Position numbers and translations under genes: made by a program
DNA from: an uncultured Bacillota bacterium
Lineage (GTDB): Bacteria > Bacillota_I > Bacilli_A > RF39 > UBA660
Length of the DNA: 39,056 nucleotides
Direction: 5' to 3'
Assembly (NCBI GenBank): GCA_947364595.1
Contig: CANATJ010000007.1
Span: 1-39,056 of the forward strand
In this document: positions 17,429-28,233 of the stretch, in pieces
Layout of the letters: each line of letters begins with the position of its first letter
Numbering within the stretch: the stretch's first letter is position 1
Notes under the pieces: model-generated
Seen by the model: only the letters and a program-made list of their open reading frames with translations
What the model was told of the DNA's origin: nothing
Databases searched by the model: none

Positions 17429-19021
17429 TTATTGTTCATTAAATATATCAGGCAAGTCATTTTCTAGTAAGACATATGTTTCTTTTTGTTTTAATTTTTC
17501 TACTAGTGGAAATGCCTCTAATACATCATTAATAACATGAATTTTTTTTAAATTAAATTGTTTTTCTTCTAAGCCTTCTTTAATTGGTTTGGTTTTATTT
17601 TCACCAACTAAAATTACTTCATCAGCACTATCGGCTATTTGTTTACCAAATTCTTTGTTTTTTTGGTATTCTTCTTTTCCTAGTTCTATCATACCAGGAG
17701 TTACTACTATATGTTTGCCTGGCATTAATTTTAAAACATCTAAGGCCATTTTGGCTCCTGTTGGATTTGAATTATAAGCGTCATCGATAAATACTATATC
17801 ATTTTTTCTTTTTAATTCAAGGCGATGTTCAACAGCTTTAACTTTTCTAACTCCTGCCTTTAATTGTTCTATGCTCATGTTAAATTCTTTTCCTAAGGCA
17901 ACTGCAGCTAATATATTATATACATTAGCATATCCTAGTAATTTTGTTTCAAATGGATATTTATTTTTATCACCTTTAAAGACTATGTTAAATTTTGTTC
18001 CATCTTTAGTTATTGTGATATCTTGGGCAACAACATCAGCATCTTTGCTATCGATTCCAATCCAAATGATTTTACAGTTGTTTTTTAATTTATAATTTCT
18101 TTGATATTCATCATCAGCATTTAATACCCCTATTCCATCATGTGGTAATGATTCGATAAGTTCAAATTTTGTTTTTTGAATTATTTCTCTACTACCAAAG
18201 CTTTCTAAATGGGCTATTCCTATTTTGGTTAAAATACCATATTTTGGATGAACTAAATCACAAAGTTCTTTGATTTCGCCTTCTTTATATGCACCCATTT
18301 CGGCAATAAAAATATCAGAAAATTTGTCTAAATAGTTATTAATCGTGATCATTAATCCCCCTGGTGTATTATAATTTTTAGGGGTTTTTAAAGCATTATA
18401 TTTTATGTTTAATATATCATTTAGAATATTTTTACTACTTGTTTTTCCATAACTTCCAGTTATTCCAATAACTTTCATGTTATTCATTGATTTAAGTTTA
18501 TTAATGGCTTTTTGTTTATAATATAGATTAACCAATGCTTCTATTGGAGAATTTATTAAAACAGCTAACAATATATATACGTTATTTAAATATGCCATTA
18601 ACCCTAAAAGCAAATAACAATAAACTAGGTTTTCTTTATTTACGTAAATACTAATAATTAATATTGGTAATATATAAATAATCATATCTGTTACAAATAA
18701 TCTTTTTATACGGCTTGTATATTTTAAAGGTAATTTGTTTTGAGCTTTTTTTCTTTTACTTATTAGGTTTAATGTTAATAAACAAAAGAAAAAGATGAAA
18801 ACAGTCATTGTAACTTTAGTATTAAAAGGTATTAATAATATAAAGAAAATAAATAGTAAGCTGGCATCAATAAATTGAGCTTTTTTATTATTATTAATCC
18901 ATTTTAAGTATGCCATTTGATTGTTATATTTGTTTTGTTGTAGCATATGAAAAGAGTTTTGACTTTTTACTAATATATATATTAAATAAACTAAGGTTGA
19001 TATTAAAAAAATATTAGTCAT
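17429..19021 (-). CDS. murF: MurF-like Mur ligase with N-terminal membrane domain
   Basis: MurF adds D-Ala-D-Ala to UDP-MurNAc-tripeptide. Residues ~180-530 are a Mur ligase central plus C-terminal domain: P-loop GITGSYGKTSSKN near 184-196, NYNTPGG, the EMGAYKEGEI stretch, GIAHLESFGS and DDAYNSNPTGAKMAL. In place of the usual soluble UDP-substrate domain, residues 1-~175 carry about five hydrophobic segments (for example 1-20, 48-66, 70-88, 110-128, 132-160). The enzyme is thus membrane-bound and the recognition of its substrate must differ. It sits between the hydrolase (8-base overlap) and ddl. A strong AAAGGAGG site sets the start. A Mur ligase with another acceptor is possible, but the ddl neighbour supports MurF. 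Confidence 0.88.
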   Translation of the reverse strand: MTNIFLISTLVYLIYILVKSQNSFHMLQQNKYNNQMAYLKWINNNKKAQFIDASLLFIFFILLIPFNTKVTMTVFIFFFCLLTLNLISKRKKAQNKLPLKYTSRIKRLFVTDMIIYILPILIISIYVNKENLVYCYLLLGLMAYLNNVYILLAVLINSPIEALVNLYYKQKAINKLKSMNNMKVIGITGSYGKTSSKNILNDILNIKYNALKTPKNYNTPGGLMITINNYLDKFSDIFIAEMGAYKEGEIKELCDLVHPKYGILTKIGIAHLESFGSREIIQKTKFELIESLPHDGIGVLNADDEYQRNYKLKNNCKIIWIGIDSKDADVVAQDITITKDGTKFNIVFKGDKNKYPFETKLLGYANVYNILAAVALGKEFNMSIEQLKAGVRKVKAVEHRLELKRKNDIVFIDDAYNSNPTGAKMALDVLKLMPGKHIVVTPGMIELGKEEYQKNKEFGKQIADSADEVILVGENKTKPIKEGLEEKQFNLKKIHVINDVLEAFPLVEKLKQKETYVLLENDLPDIFNEQ

Positions 19022-19754
19022 TTTTATCCTCCTTTATAAAGCTTTTAATTATAGATGTTGTTTGACTTAAACGTTCTAGATATGCATAGTGAGTACAACC
19101 TTCATAAACGATTACTGCAGCATCTTTAATCAATTTTTCTAATATATATGCATCTTCTAAAGGTACAGCAGCGTCTTGATCACCCCAAATAATAATTGTT
19201 GGACAATTTATTTTTTTTATGTTTTCAGTTAAATCTGTATTTACATGCTTAACTAATATTTGTCTCATCATTGGACTAGCATTACGATAATCTGTTGATC
19301 CTATATATTTTTTGGCTTTTTCGGCTACTACACTCATACCTGGTAATTTTTTTATTGATTTTAATAGTTTTTGTTTTAAGCTAGGTTCATTTTTTTCTAC
19401 TTTAAATGGGCTTGCTAATGCGACTAATTTTTGTGTTTGATATTTACTAGCATAAAGTAAGCTTATTTTTCCACCAAATGAATGTCCAATTAAAATTGGA
19501 TTTTCTATTTTTAATGACTTTAATAATTCATGAACCATATCAGCGAAATCATCTAATAACCAAACTTCTTTTGGTTCTTCACTTTTTCCATGTCCTGGAA
19601 GATCGATTATTATTATGTCATTTTTTGTTAAGGCATCGCCTACTGGTTTCATCATTTCAATGTTTTGACCCCAGCCATGTAATAATACAATGGTTTTTCC
19701 ATTTTTATTACCATATCTTATGTAATTTATTTGGACATTTTTATATTTAAACAT
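19014..19754 (-). CDS. Alpha/beta-fold hydrolase
   Basis: This 246-residue soluble hydrolase has the full catalytic set: oxyanion HG at 26-27 (LLHGWGQ), nucleophile Ser92 in GHSFGG, Asp194 in GDQDAAVP and His222 in CTHYAYLE. A cap domain lies at about 120-170. Substrate unknown; relatives include esterases, C-C hydrolases and 2-succinyl-type MenH enzymes. Its gene overlaps murF by eight bases and is first after the isoleucine T-box, so it is probably co-expressed with wall-precursor genes. ATG 19754, with TAGGTGAT in front, is preferred over an upstream TTG. Confidence 0.88.
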   Translation of the reverse strand: MFKYKNVQINYIRYGNKNGKTIVLLHGWGQNIEMMKPVGDALTKNDIIIIDLPGHGKSEEPKEVWLLDDFADMVHELLKSLKIENPILIGHSFGGKISLLYASKYQTQKLVALASPFKVEKNEPSLKQKLLKSIKKLPGMSVVAEKAKKYIGSTDYRNASPMMRQILVKHVNTDLTENIKKINCPTIIIWGDQDAAVPLEDAYILEKLIKDAAVIVYEGCTHYAYLERLSQTTSIIKSFIKEDKND

Positions 19755-19771
19755 TAAATCACCTACTGACA

Positions 19772-19800
19772 ATTATAACATAGTTACCCTTATAAAACAA
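19772..19800 (-). promoter_or_regulatory. Possible sigma-A promoter between T-box and hydrolase gene
   Basis: TTGTTT (19795-19800), 17 bases, perfect TATAAT (19772-19777) on the minus strand. It lies downstream of the T-box terminator, so it could drive hydrolase-murF-ddl-ileS independently of tRNA-Ile. The -35 is only half-matching. Confidence 0.5.
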
Positions 19801-19833: not shown

Positions 19834-20040
19834 AAAAAACTCTATCCTATTAAGGACGAGTTTTCCCGCGGTACCACCTTATTTTATAATTTATATACAC
19901 TCATAACTATAACGCGTTACCGTTCTTTCCTACTTTATTCAAAAAGAAACATCTAGAGTGATTCATATATTAGCTATTTATTAGTTTACACCGAACACTA
20001 ACTCTCTTTAAAATATACTAATATACCGTCTCTATCGTTT
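19834..20040 (-). promoter_or_regulatory. Isoleucine-specific T-box riboswitch with terminator
   Basis: The leader RNA contains the T-box element GGTGGTACCGCGGGA (fwd 19863-19877), then CTCGTCC and a terminator hairpin (19834-19864) with six U. UGGU pairs with an A73 tRNA end. Stem I closes with AGAG/CUCU; just before the CUCU, separated by one A, lies AUC (fwd 19960-19962), the expected place of the specifier codon, giving Ile. Stem I is compact, about 52 bases. The leader begins right after the divIVA stop with no room for its own intergenic promoter, so sepF-divIVA read-through or a promoter inside divIVA must feed it. Confidence 0.9.
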
Positions 20041-20044
20041 GCTT

Positions 20045-20524
20045 TTACATATCTAACTTATCTATATCATCGATTATTTCTAATTGAGATTCAATTATAT
20101 TTTTTAAACGACGTTTTAATAGGTTTATATTTCTTTTTGTCATCATAGCATCATTTTCAATTTTTTCAGCTCTTAATAATGCTTCATTAACAATTCTACT
20201 AGCATTTTTCTTTGCATCATCCATGATAACTTCGCTTTCTCTATGAGCTGCAACTTTTAATTGATCAGATGTTTTTTGCGCCATAATAATCGCTTTATTT
20301 AGAGTACTTTCCATTCTTTCATATTGAGCTAATTTTTCTTGCATTGTTTTAGATTCATCTACTTGTGCTTGCAGATGATCGATCTTTTCATTTTGACTTT
20401 TTATTAATTTATTCTTTTTATCAATATCAGAAACCATAGTTTCTACACGACTTATGACCTGATCTAAAAATGCATTTACCTCTTCTGGATCATACCCTCT
20501 AAGCGTTCGATTGAATTTTTCCAT
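20045..20524 (-). CDS. divIVA: DivIVA-family cell division/polar protein
   Basis: DivIVA is a membrane-curvature-sensing coiled-coil scaffold at septa and poles. The 159 residues open with FNRTLRGYDPEEVNAFLDQV, the DivIVA N-domain core, followed by a long coiled coil to the end. Compared with Bacillus DivIVA, the first ~8-10 residues before this core (the LTPxDIxNKxF segment) are missing. An in-frame stop upstream with no alternative start between shows the short form is genuine. GAGGTAGAG serves as ribosome site. It follows sepF by 40 bases, as in the dcw-linked ylm region of Firmicutes, but ylmG and ylmH are absent. Confidence 0.92.
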   Translation of the reverse strand: MEKFNRTLRGYDPEEVNAFLDQVISRVETMVSDIDKKNKLIKSQNEKIDHLQAQVDESKTMQEKLAQYERMESTLNKAIIMAQKTSDQLKVAAHRESEVIMDDAKKNASRIVNEALLRAEKIENDAMMTKRNINLLKRRLKNIIESQLEIIDDIDKLDM

Positions 20525-25070: not shown

Positions 25071-25097
25071 AAAAGATATATTTAATAAATATATCTT
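25071..25097 (-). terminator. Intrinsic terminator after glyS
   Basis: An A/T palindrome aagatatattta / taaatatatctt is followed by TTTT on the minus strand, starting at the glyS stop. Confidence 0.65.
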
Positions 25098-26466
25098 AAA
25101 ATTTTATTTTTTCGTTAATATAATTTACAATTTCTTCTACTTTAATTGTTTCTTGTTTCATGGTGTCTCTATTTCTAATGGTTACTGTATTATTGTTTAT
25201 TGTTTCATCATCTATTGTTATACAATAAGGTGTTCCTGCGACATCTTGTCTACGATATCTTTTACCAATGTTTCCCGTTTCATCATAAGTTACCATGAAT
25301 TCTTTAGCAAGCATTTGATATATTTCTTGAGCTTTTTCATTATGATGCTTTTTGACTAATGGTAAAACGGCTGCTTTAAATGGCGCTAAAGCGGGATGAA
25401 AACTCATTACTTCTCTAGTAGTATCATCTTCTAATGTTTCTTCTTTATAAGCATCAAATAGAAAAGCTAATGTTGCTCTATCAGCACCCATTGATGATTC
25501 AATAACAAATGGTGTATATTTTTCGTTTGTGATTGGGTCCAAATATGTCATAGGTTTTCCTGAATATTCTTCATGACGTTTTAAATCATAATCAGTTCTA
25601 TTATGTGTACCTGATACTTCACCAAATCCAAAATCGAATTCATATTCGACGTCACATGCTTCTTTAGCATAATGAGCTAATTTGTCATGATCGTGAAATC
25701 TTAATTTTTCTTTAGATATACCTAAGTTTATGAAAAAATCCATTTGTTTTTGCTTATAAGCTTTGTAAAATTCATCATCGGTTCCTGGTTTACAGAATAA
25801 TTGATGTTCCATTTGTTCAAATTCAATTGTTCTAAAGGTGAAATTACCTGGGGTAATTTCATTTCTAAAGGCTTTTCCTATTTGCCCAATACCAAATGGT
25901 ACTTTAGCTCTCATGGTACGATTTACATTTAAAAAGTTTACAAATTCTCCTTGTGCTGTTTCTGGCCTTAAATAAATTAAATTTTTATTACTTTCTGTAA
26001 CTCCTCTTTCTGTTTTAAACATTAGATTAAATTCTCTTATATCAGTAAAATCACTTTTTCCACATTTTGGACATTTTACATGATTATCTTTGATAAATTT
26101 GATCATTTCTTCGTCAGTCATTTGATCGGCAATGATATTATTATCAAAACTTTCAACTAAATGATCAGCACGATGTCTGGTTTTACAGCTACGACAATCT
26201 ACTAAAGGATCTGAAAAGCTTGAAACATGTCCTGAAGCTTCCCATACTTTTGGAGCCATAAGTATAGCCGCATCTACACCATAACTATGAGGGCTTTCTT
26301 GGATAAATTTTTTCCACCAAGCTTTTTTTATGTTGTTTTTAAGCTCTACTCCAAGTGGTCCATAATCCCATGTGTTGGCTAAACCACCGTATATTTCACT
26401 TCCTTGAAATATAAAACCATATTGTTTACATATACTTACTAATTTTTCCATTGTTACTTTTTCCAT
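25096..26466 (-). CDS. glyS: Glycyl-tRNA synthetase, single-chain alpha2 type
   Basis: A class II enzyme that charges tRNA-Gly. It is the one-polypeptide (archaeal/eukaryal-like and some Firmicutes) form, not the GlyQ/GlyS two-subunit form of Bacillus. The 456 residues show the opening ICKQYGFIFQGSEIYGG, the CRSC...CPKC zinc-type insert (about 90-145), motif 2 AFRNEITPGNFTFRTIEFEQ and motif 3 SSMGADRATLAFL, then the anticodon-binding domain (about 350-456). The start is ATG 26466 with AAAGGTGAG; a GTG nine bases earlier lies in that site. dapF is 12 bases upstream in the same transcript behind a T-box with a tRNA-Gly-type UGGA element. Confidence 0.96.
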   Translation of the reverse strand: MEKVTMEKLVSICKQYGFIFQGSEIYGGLANTWDYGPLGVELKNNIKKAWWKKFIQESPHSYGVDAAILMAPKVWEASGHVSSFSDPLVDCRSCKTRHRADHLVESFDNNIIADQMTDEEMIKFIKDNHVKCPKCGKSDFTDIREFNLMFKTERGVTESNKNLIYLRPETAQGEFVNFLNVNRTMRAKVPFGIGQIGKAFRNEITPGNFTFRTIEFEQMEHQLFCKPGTDDEFYKAYKQKQMDFFINLGISKEKLRFHDHDKLAHYAKEACDVEYEFDFGFGEVSGTHNRTDYDLKRHEEYSGKPMTYLDPITNEKYTPFVIESSMGADRATLAFLFDAYKEETLEDDTTREVMSFHPALAPFKAAVLPLVKKHHNEKAQEIYQMLAKEFMVTYDETGNIGKRYRRQDVAGTPYCITIDDETINNNTVTIRNRDTMKQETIKVEEIVNYINEKIKF

Positions 26467-26478
26467 ACTACTCACCTT

Positions 26479-27315
26479 TTATATTTGACCACTGAATACT
26501 TCAGTAGCCGGTCCTTTCATTATAACTTCTTTTCCATTAAATGTTATGAATAGGTTTCCACCTTTCATGGTAACTTTTATTTCTTTATTTTCTTTTACTT
26601 TATTATTTAATACGGCTGCAACTACACTAGCACTAGCTCCTGTGCCACAGCATAGTGTTTCACCACTGCCTCTTTCCCATACTCTAACTTTAATAGAGGT
26701 GTCATTTAAAATTTCTACAAATTCTGTATTAATCCTTTCTGGGAATAATTTGTGATTTTCAAATTTTGGTCCAATTTTTTCTAAATCTAAATGGTCAATA
26801 TTGTCTTTAAAAATTATAACATGGGGATTTCCCATTGATACACATGTTGCAATGTATGTTTGACCATCAATATTTATTTCTTTAGCAATAAATGTTTCTT
26901 CTTTACTAAGTACAGGAATTTCTTTACATTTTAAAATTGGGTTTCCCATATTAACGGTTACATATTTAACTATATTATTTTGAATATCTAGTTTTAAATC
27001 TTTTATGCCACTTTTTGTTTCTATTTTTATACTATCTTTTTTACATATACCTTTTTCATAGACATATTTACCTACACATCTAATAGCGTTACCACACATA
27101 TTTCCTTCTGATCCATCAGCATTGTACATAATCATTTTAACATCTGCCTTTTCTGATGGACAAATTAGTACTACTCCATCTGCGCCAATACCAAAATGAC
27201 GATTGCTATATTTTATAATTAATTCTTTTAAATTTGGTAAATTTCTTATATCATTTTCAAAACAATTGAAATAAATATAGTCATTTCCAGCGCCTTCCAT
27301 TTTAGTGAAGTGCAC
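26479..27315 (-). CDS. dapF: Diaminopimelate epimerase
   Basis: DapF converts LL- to meso-diaminopimelate for lysine and peptidoglycan. The 278 residues include both catalytic cysteines: one in NADGSEGNMCGNAIRC (near 79) and one in GETLCCGTGA (near 223). I place the start at GTG 27315, giving MHFTKMEGAGNDY, the standard family N-terminus, with AAAGGA eight bases upstream. A longer open frame further upstream is translated T-box RNA and is not part of the protein. It is first in a dapF-glyS unit. It implies mDAP-type peptidoglycan and/or lysine synthesis; no other dap genes are in the window. Confidence 0.95.
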   Translation of the reverse strand: MHFTKMEGAGNDYIYFNCFENDIRNLPNLKELIIKYSNRHFGIGADGVVLICPSEKADVKMIMYNADGSEGNMCGNAIRCVGKYVYEKGICKKDSIKIETKSGIKDLKLDIQNNIVKYVTVNMGNPILKCKEIPVLSKEETFIAKEINIDGQTYIATCVSMGNPHVIIFKDNIDHLDLEKIGPKFENHKLFPERINTEFVEILNDTSIKVRVWERGSGETLCCGTGASASVVAAVLNNKVKENKEIKVTMKGGNLFITFNGKEVIMKGPATEVFSGQI

Positions 27316-27455
27316 ACTATCATTCCTTTCTAAAAAAAGATTCTTCTTAAAATGTAAGGACGAGTTTCCCCGCGGTTCCACCTTACTTATTCTAAAAAGA
27401 ATCAGCTTTAATATATGACTCAGGGTTTCCAATCCGTCTTCGTCTTTCACTATAC
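27316..27455 (-). promoter_or_regulatory. Short T-box riboswitch, tRNA-Gly type, ahead of dapF-glyS
   Basis: The T-box element AAGGTGGAACCGCGGGGAAA and CTCGTCCTTAC are present on the minus strand (about 27353-27382). UGGA pairs with a U73 tRNA end, as tRNA-Gly has; this agrees with glyS downstream. From the predicted start point to the T-box is only about 75 bases. The 5' piece GACGAAGACGG is like that of other T-boxes, but I find no room for a normal Stem I and cannot place a specifier codon. A 10-bp pairing GATTCTTTTT / AAGAAGAATC before seven U encloses the T-box hairpin and could be the terminator. The UCCUU could also pair with the AAGGA ribosome site. Confidence 0.8.
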
Positions 27456-27461
27456 ATTTAA

Positions 27462-27490
27462 ATTATATTCATTTATTTTAAAATAGTCAA
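27462..27490 (-). promoter_or_regulatory. Sigma-A promoter of the dapF-glyS leader
   Basis: TTGACT (27485-27490), 17 bases, TATAAT (27462-27467) on the minus strand, just after the recO stop. It limits the leader to about 140 bases. Confidence 0.7.
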
Positions 27491-27495
27491 TACTT

Positions 27496-28233
27496 TTAAT
27501 TGTTTATTTTTTGAAGGGTTTGAATAAATTTTTTACTTTTAAGATATAATCCTGTATATCTTGTATAATAATCATCTAAAAACATGTTTATTTCTGTTTT
27601 AACTCTGTCTGAAACATCTAATTTAGATATTTTTGCTATATCAACATAATAAAACATTCTAATTAATTTTATAGTTTTTTCACTGACTATTTTTTCATTT
27701 GTATAACAATTTTGACAAATTAAACCACCTTTATAACTTGATAATGTTGTAATAGCTTTTGTTTTCCCACAAATAGCACAATTATCTAAAACTGGCATTA
27801 CTCCTAGATAATATAAATATTTTAATTCTAAAATATTCATTATTACTAATGGATCAAATCCTTCATCTATTTTAGTTAGTGCTTCAATTAGAAGGTTAAA
27901 TATTTCTTTTGTGTTGTTTTGTTTTATTACCCCACTACTTAGCTCTAACATATATGTGGCATAACTAATACTAGATATATCTTTTTTTATATTTTTAAAA
28001 TTATTTATAACACTGACTTCTTTTAAGGTGGAAAGTTTATCTTTTTTATAATAAATAATAAAAGTTCCATATGTTAATTTATTAGCCACTACTCTTAATG
28101 GACTTTTGATGTTTTTACAACCTTTAGCCATTACACTTATTAAACCTTTATCTTTGGTTATAATATTTAATATTTTGCTTGTTTCACTATAGTTTGTTTC
28201 ACCTACTACTATACCTTCTACTTCTTCTATCAT
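27496..28233 (-). CDS. recO: DNA repair protein RecO
   Basis: RecO anneals single strands and loads RecA with RecR. The 245 residues have the N-terminal OB domain (EEVEGIVVGETNYSETSKIL...KGLISVMAKGCK), a helical core and a zinc knuckle CAICG...CQNC near 150-180. It lies between yqzL and dapF, the same slot (era-yqzL-recO-gly) as in Bacillus. GAGGATAAATT before the ATG serves as ribosome site and overlaps the end of yqzL, suggesting coupling. Confidence 0.95.
   Translation of the reverse strand: MIEEVEGIVVGETNYSETSKILNIITKDKGLISVMAKGCKNIKSPLRVVANKLTYGTFIIYYKKDKLSTLKEVSVINNFKNIKKDISSISYATYMLELSSGVIKQNNTKEIFNLLIEALTKIDEGFDPLVIMNILELKYLYYLGVMPVLDNCAICGKTKAITTLSSYKGGLICQNCYTNEKIVSEKTIKLIRMFYYVDIAKISKLDVSDRVKTEINMFLDDYYTRYTGLYLKSKKFIQTLQKINN

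Follow-up and report, generated by a model that had tools for sequence, protein, structure and literature searches.

How a T-box leader with little room for a Stem I could recognise one particular tRNA is the question raised by the locus described here. The window is contig C7 (CANATJ010000007.1, 39,056 nt, analysed at its full length) of assembly GCA_947364595.1, a draft genome of 1.04 Mb that is 89% complete and comes from an uncultured Bacillota bacterium (GTDB lineage Bacteria; Bacillota_I; Bacilli_A; RF39; UBA660). A first-pass annotation, made from the letters of the sequence, had proposed an abnormal ultrashort T-box ahead of dapF and glyS, with no recognisable Stem I and no clear specifier. 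The first part of that proposal is strongly borne out by comparative data (covariance model, RNAalifold and mutual information), but the second part is not, as a 28-nt Stem I with GGA at 27430-27428 becomes evident once relatives are compared. The element is best explained as a transcriptional, glycine-specific T-box that senses tRNA-Gly and controls dapF-glyS in this genome, and glyS alone in most relatives, and we put the probability of this reading at about 0.82. The proposed parts of the leader are as follows.

27417-27444, minus strand: ultrashort Stem I of 28 nt, with base helix GAC/GUC, kink-turn, short helix GG/CC and apical loop
27428-27430, minus strand: specifier GGA (glycine) in the apical loop, with U before it and A after it
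27403-27416, minus strand: single-stranded linker of 14 nt that replaces Stem II and Stem IIA/B and carries the purine string before Stem III at its 3' end
27389-27402, minus strand: Stem III (AUUCU-UUUU-AGAAU), then AA
27354-27386, minus strand: antiterminator, with helix A1 (GUAAGG/CCUUAC), a 7-nt bulge (UGGAACC) and helix A2 (GCGGG/CUCGU, with a G-U pair at its base)
27332-27353, minus strand: terminator 3' strand AUUUUAAGAAGAAUC (27353-27339), which pairs with 27403-27389, and seven U (27338-27332)

Stem I and the glycine specifier

The genes for glyS were collected across the genus together with their upstream regions for leader comparison; all genomes compared in this study are drafts of uncultured organisms. 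Nearly every leader of the genus resembled that of the window ([AG]GC-GAUGA-...-UGGAAA-...-GAGUC). When the MAFFT-aligned leaders of 25 relatives were given to RNAalifold, the program returned, unprompted, a tiny Stem I with a base of 3 bp (GC/AU and GU/GC/AU), an upper helix of 2-3 bp (CG, GU, GC, AU; GC or UA) and a loop consisting of an invariant UGG plus A's. The upper helix ranges from 2 to 4 bp and the whole core from 28 to 34 nt across relatives, and pair counts in the genus set found 98.9% of cells paired. In a family alignment fitted to the model, 17 of 20 pairs varied on both sides, compared to 3-6 when the partners were slid. Because that alignment had been fitted to the structure, a structure-free retest was made in which mutual information was calculated on ungapped cores of equal length, mixed-length sequences anchored on the specifier having been confounded by spacing. 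This recovered the nested Stem I pairs 1-29, 9-24, 10-23 and 11-22, with the same set in 30-nt cores, and the base pair of the stem occurred as UA, AU, GC or CG and was paired in 100% of the equal-length cores. The kink-turn of the window (a GAA bulge, with GA opposite GA) is kept as well, GA being present on the bulged strand in 68 of 69 relatives and on the other strand in 57 of 69. Both outcomes for which the first-pass annotation had called for a leader alignment, covarying stems and a conserved GGN triplet, were found.

Among 131 readable loops, a few of which are long-stem controls, about 115 carried GGA, 15 GGC and 1 GGU, while two read GGGA and can be taken as GGG or GGA. A U precedes and an A follows the GGN in nearly all loops. 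As changes at the third base always leave a glycine codon, this is the pattern expected of a specifier. The alternative frames UGG (Trp) and GAA (Glu) were considered and rejected, since changes at the third base of GGN are synonymous, an A nearly always comes next and U73 is matched by UGGA. Conservation of a standard specifier loop among homologues had been named in advance as a finding that would count against an ultrashort element; the specifier is indeed conserved, but it lies in an apical loop and not in the standard internal loop.

Antiterminator, linker and Stem III

The canonical T-box sequence (GGTGGAACCGCGGG...CTCGTCC) is present, with the bulge at 27380-27374 and UGGA at 27380-27377, and helices A1 and A2 covary among relatives. 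The genome has two tRNA-Gly genes, with anticodons UCC and GCC, and UCCA is the 3' end of both, which agrees with the earlier suggestion that UGGA fits the U73 end of tRNA-Gly. The Rfam covariance search that had been recommended gave a T-box match to the leader of 39.7 bits (E 2.4e-7), far below the gathering score of 93; the RF00230 model expects a long Stem I.

Between Stem I and Stem III, 69 relatives have linkers of 13-19 nt. Neither a Stem II nor an S-turn or IIA/B pseudoknot has room or pairing in the linker, as judged from RNAalifold on the 25 relatives and from the linkers of the 69. The sequence AUAUA directly 3' of Stem I (27416-27412 in the window, minus strand) is conserved in nearly all family leaders, but no partner for it could be identified, and pairing of this sequence with the 5' flank was rejected since a leader's own pairs (-1.8 kcal/mol) did no better than swapped ones (-2.0 kcal/mol). 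RRRxG precedes Stem III in 53 of 69 relatives and AA directly follows it in 68 of 69, and the fitted family alignment (A3) shows 100% pairing at the first four pairs of Stem III.

The terminator competes with Stem III

The first-pass annotation had described a terminator that encloses the T-box hairpin instead of excluding it, and this unusual arrangement holds. The terminator (GATTCTTTTTAGAAT/ATTTTAAGAAGAATC) consists of 15 contiguous bp (-15.2 kcal/mol) and is followed by the seven U; its 5' strand comprises the entire Stem III and the G that precedes it, so that the terminator encloses the antiterminator. Relatives keep it through compensatory change, with forms such as CUUCUGG/CCAGAAG (L042), CUCCUAG/CUAGGGG (L033), GAGAUUCUUUU/AAAAGAAUCUC (L019) and GAUUCUUUCU/AGAAAGGGUC (L017). 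The pairing of Stem III with the terminator was stronger than the canonical pairing of an antiterminator strand in 121 of 123 parsed leaders; the two exceptions both belong to the canonical control T-boxes, and the 121 include two weak control rows.

At minimum energy, the leader of the window folds into a single long hairpin that retains both A1 and A2 (-30.5 kcal/mol, z -2.4), compared to -19.4 kcal/mol for the ON fold in which Stem III was forced. The difference suggests that the default state without tRNA is OFF. Since the terminator 5' strand is the sequence of Stem III, it is Stem III and not the antiterminator strands that must be unfolded for termination. On the sequence, therefore, Stem III and the terminator are mutually exclusive and the antiterminator is compatible with the terminator. 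Sequence comparison likewise establishes the parts of the leader, the helix of Stem I, the specifier for glycine and the match of UGGA to U73.

This platform is found beyond glyS. By the same measure, 2 of the 6 other T-boxes examined in the genome of the window and 5 of 19 parsed in other family members look alike, whereas most other T-boxes of these genomes are canonical. The platform is therefore regarded as characteristic of the lineage, and the short Stem I as characteristic of its glycine T-box. The other T-boxes that seem to open Stem III and enclose the antiterminator have a normal Stem I (L002 and L008 in the same genome; L371, L375, L380, L388 and L393 in family members).

Proposed mechanism

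For tRNA binding, the sensing of charging and the kinetics of the switch, we infer the following course of events. Once the 28-nt Stem I has been transcribed, the anticodon of tRNA-Gly(UCC) would meet the GGA in its apical loop, and the kink-turn would bend the chain so that the UGGA bulge comes within reach of the acceptor end of the tRNA. With an uncharged acceptor end, UGGA would pair with UCCA, the purines on either side of Stem III would dock on the duplex and Stem III would remain a hairpin. A folded Stem III would leave the terminator 3' strand without its sole strong partner, and transcription would go on. If the tRNA is charged or absent, the 3' strand would open Stem III and form a 15-bp extension of the antiterminator hairpin ahead of the seven U, and transcription would stop.

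Several points weigh against this reading. The modelled folds suggest that A1 and A2 survive in the OFF state, so the step from charged tRNA to termination would be less direct than in known T-boxes. The Stem I of the window has mismatches, with one A-C pair and a C-U next to the kink-turn, and its RRRxG string is AGCUG, in which one base is a pyrimidine. When Stem II is absent, tRNA binding by the short Stem I of a translational ileS T-box is barely detectable (PMC7583486), which means that affinity must have another source here, and affinity is the hardest step of the mechanism. It is tempting to speculate that a U-GGN-A loop could also pair with A37 and U33, which are present in both tRNA-Gly genes, and that this could offset the lost grips.

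Locus and promoter

The genes lie on the minus strand in the order recO, dapF, glyS from right to left, and the features around the leader are as follows.

27496-28233, minus strand: recO
27462-27490, minus strand: strong predicted promoter, with -35 TTGACT (27490-27485), a spacer of 17 nt and -10 TATAAT (27467-27462)
27313-27329, minus strand: ribosome site AAAGGA (27329-27324) and GTG start (27315-27313) of dapF, read from the sequence
26479-27315, minus strand: dapF, at the head of the regulated operon in this genome (TIGR00652, 298.9 bits)
25096-26466, minus strand: glyS, glycyl-tRNA synthetase (NF003211, 653.9 bits)

Transcription is predicted to start at about 27454, which gives a leader of 123 nt (27454-27332) between recO and dapF and places 74 nt ahead of UGGA. 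The short distance from start to T-box and the missing long Stem I had both been pointed out before and are confirmed. A start well inside recO, which would have allowed a full-length Stem I, is contradicted by a promoter that lies between recO and Stem I, and a longer Stem I concealed within recO is ruled out by its position. A close promoter, with at most 3 mismatches to TTGACA/TATAAT, is present in 120 of 127 family leaders; the median distance from -10 to Stem I is 14.5 nt, and the mean number of mismatches is 1.7 compared to 3.5 in shuffles.

Nearly all family leaders have glyS on their 3' side, directly adjoining in most. A dapF between the leader and glyS was found in this genome only and not in the other leaders checked, so that dapF, a lysine and peptidoglycan gene, here would come under glycine tRNA control. 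In some genera other genes are interposed before glyS, namely open reading frames (ORFs) that resemble, in translation, a prolyl-tRNA synthetase, a small LOG/DprA-like protein or a sugar isomerase (L126, L160, L181; L157, L165, L215; L088, L090). One draft genome (G163) holds two copies of glyS (L087; L134/L214), each with its own ultrashort T-box.

The genome of the window contains about 11 other T-boxes, seven of them above the Rfam cut-off. In those that were read, Stem I is long and has the usual apical sequences, and there is further structure upstream, which makes the glyS element an exception within its own genome. One canonical T-box of 119.1 bits (19849-20047, minus strand) lies in the window upstream of two ORFs without an obvious connection to amino acids, an alpha/beta-hydrolase-like one (19014-19772) and a MurF-like one (17429-19021), both named from their translations.

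Distribution and origin

A covariance model built for the element supports the proposed regulator by locating it before glyS across most of the order. At E<=1e-9 it matched 163 of the 241 genomes and 71 of the 92 genera, and all listed genomes belong to one family. Matches were seen in 27 of 296 genomes in a class-wide sample and in 15 of 392 in a phylum-wide sample (E<=1e-8), every one in that same family; outside it no match was found in these two samples, in which the filters were stricter and weak relatives could escape. An exact-pattern scan of GTDB genomes gave many chance matches. Among the matches listed, 80 loci were read and 8 fitted the model at E<=1e-8, all of them in uncultured Bacilli/Tenericutes/Firmicutes-type drafts, and the others read reached at most 27 bits. 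The named carriers among the matches listed are drafts of uncultured Bacilli, Firmicutes, Tenericutes and Erysipelotrichaceae, one of which came from water-buffalo omasum.

Within the same family, one genome (G079) has a T-box before glyS (L142) with a long Stem I, a GGUGA-type apical sequence and the same GGA specifier. Long glycine T-boxes also stand before glyS in three other families (L145, L147, L149). The presence of the long form in the same family points to a loss of the distal Stem I, and from the sequences the simplest history would be that this loss took place within the family. Some members of the family have no T-box directly before glyS. A further variant before glyS (L143, G086) has a short Stem I with GGC and keeps UGGA, but has lost the Stem III hairpin; its A2 is rebuilt as GUGUAC/GUAUGC and its terminator (AGAACAAA/UUUGUUCU) still encloses the antiterminator.

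Relation to known T-boxes and alternative explanations

Measured against the open-access literature, the element is a T-box by the general features tested, belongs to neither Class II nor Class III, and has a non-canonical platform. It has UGGN in a 7-nt bulge between A1 and A2 that matches the NCCA of the tRNA, a Stem I with GA/GA kink-turn and a specifier that fits glyS and is followed by a purine, and a Stem III flanked by RRRxG (one base off in the window) and AA. With the Class II glycine T-boxes of the B. subtilis glyQS type it shares the glycine specifier, a linker in the place of Stem II, Stem III with the UGGA discriminator, a transcriptional terminator and control of glycyl-tRNA synthetase. 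However, those have a long Stem I with a distal elbow-binding module (IDTM), compared to 28-34 nt here, and known T-boxes build the terminator 5' strand from the 3' halves of A1 and A2 (PMC7583486), a role taken here by Stem III. With Class III, the actinobacterial ileS T-boxes of N. farcinica and M. tuberculosis, it shares a short kink-turn Stem I, a specifier in the apical loop and the lack of an elbow-binding module. Class III T-boxes, however, need a Stem II with S-turn and the IIA/B pseudoknot, are mostly translational, read isoleucine and have a loop of 5-6 nt (PMC10482949), whereas the present element has no Stem II, reads glycine, has a loop of about 7-9 nt and carries a terminator. 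The long L142 has the same glyS context, GGA followed by A, glycine UGGA antiterminator and discriminator layout; it keeps the distal Stem I, whereas in the ultrashort form the whole stretch that would separate the kink-turn-proximal helix from the specifier is missing. On the best reading, the element has a short Stem I like that of translational Class III and, like Class II, no Stem II.

In the four T-box classes listed in a 2023 paper, specifier pairing is augmented by elbow contact, Stem II or both (PMC10482949), though a 2020 review argues that Stem II may be dispensable because of the strength of a GGC-GCC duplex (PMC7583486). The present element carries that argument to its end, and mostly with GGA. 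We lean slightly toward regarding it as a fifth T-box architecture, in which the codon-anticodon duplex and the acceptor end would suffice to read the tRNA, elbow contact and Stem II both being absent, and the switching element would be Stem III in place of the antiterminator strands. Members may already stand unremarked in TBDB or in the surveys of 2008, 2009 and 2015.

Other explanations have to be weighed against a transcriptional glycine switch. Action on translation, in which UCCUU would sequester the AAGGA of dapF or glyS as in the short-stem actinobacterial ileS T-boxes, had been put forward in the first-pass annotation. The two sequences are indeed complementary, and a short Stem I is known otherwise from translational T-boxes (PMC7583486, PMC10482949). 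However, UCCUU is held inside A1 in both the minimum-energy OFF fold and the forced ON fold, an anti-Shine-Dalgarno look is common to any T-box strand of the form CGUCC(U), and a covarying stem and U-tract stand directly before the ribosome site in nearly all relatives, all of which makes translational control improbable. The same annotation had also suggested that only the acceptor end of the tRNA is read. Such a device would sense any uncharged tRNA with U73, and the loop of Stem I would not be a specifier; the lack of elbow contact and Stem II and the fit of UGGA to U73 would be in keeping with it. Nevertheless, a GGN followed by A is kept in a covarying kink-turn hairpin, and synonymous changes among glycine codons (GGA, GGC, GGU, possibly GGG) would be needless for a device of that kind, which we consider the most doubtful of the explanations discussed here.

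The element could instead be the decaying remnant of a normal glycine T-box that has lost its Stem I, the rest being an unregulated attenuator or on its way to vanishing. Its descent from a long glycine T-box such as L142 is clear, and published work holds that Stem II or elbow contact is needed (PMC7583486, PMC10482949). However, the element is retained in hundreds of genomes, the pairs of Stem I change in compensation, the loop triplet shifts only between glycine codons, and the kink-turn and UGGA are kept. Decay is thus judged to be very unlikely, and a functional, transcriptional T-box for tRNA-Gly is preferred.

If this reading is right, the glyS leader would be among the smallest tRNA-sensing transcription switches, with about 120 nt from start to U-tract, and the use of Stem III as the competing strand would offer a simple genetic handle on the role of Stem III. 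A score so far under the Rfam cut-off implies that whole lineages of such regulators can escape annotation. A natural glycine T-box that extends across a family of uncultured gut bacteria and would function without elbow grip or Stem II is a direct test of the published binding rule.
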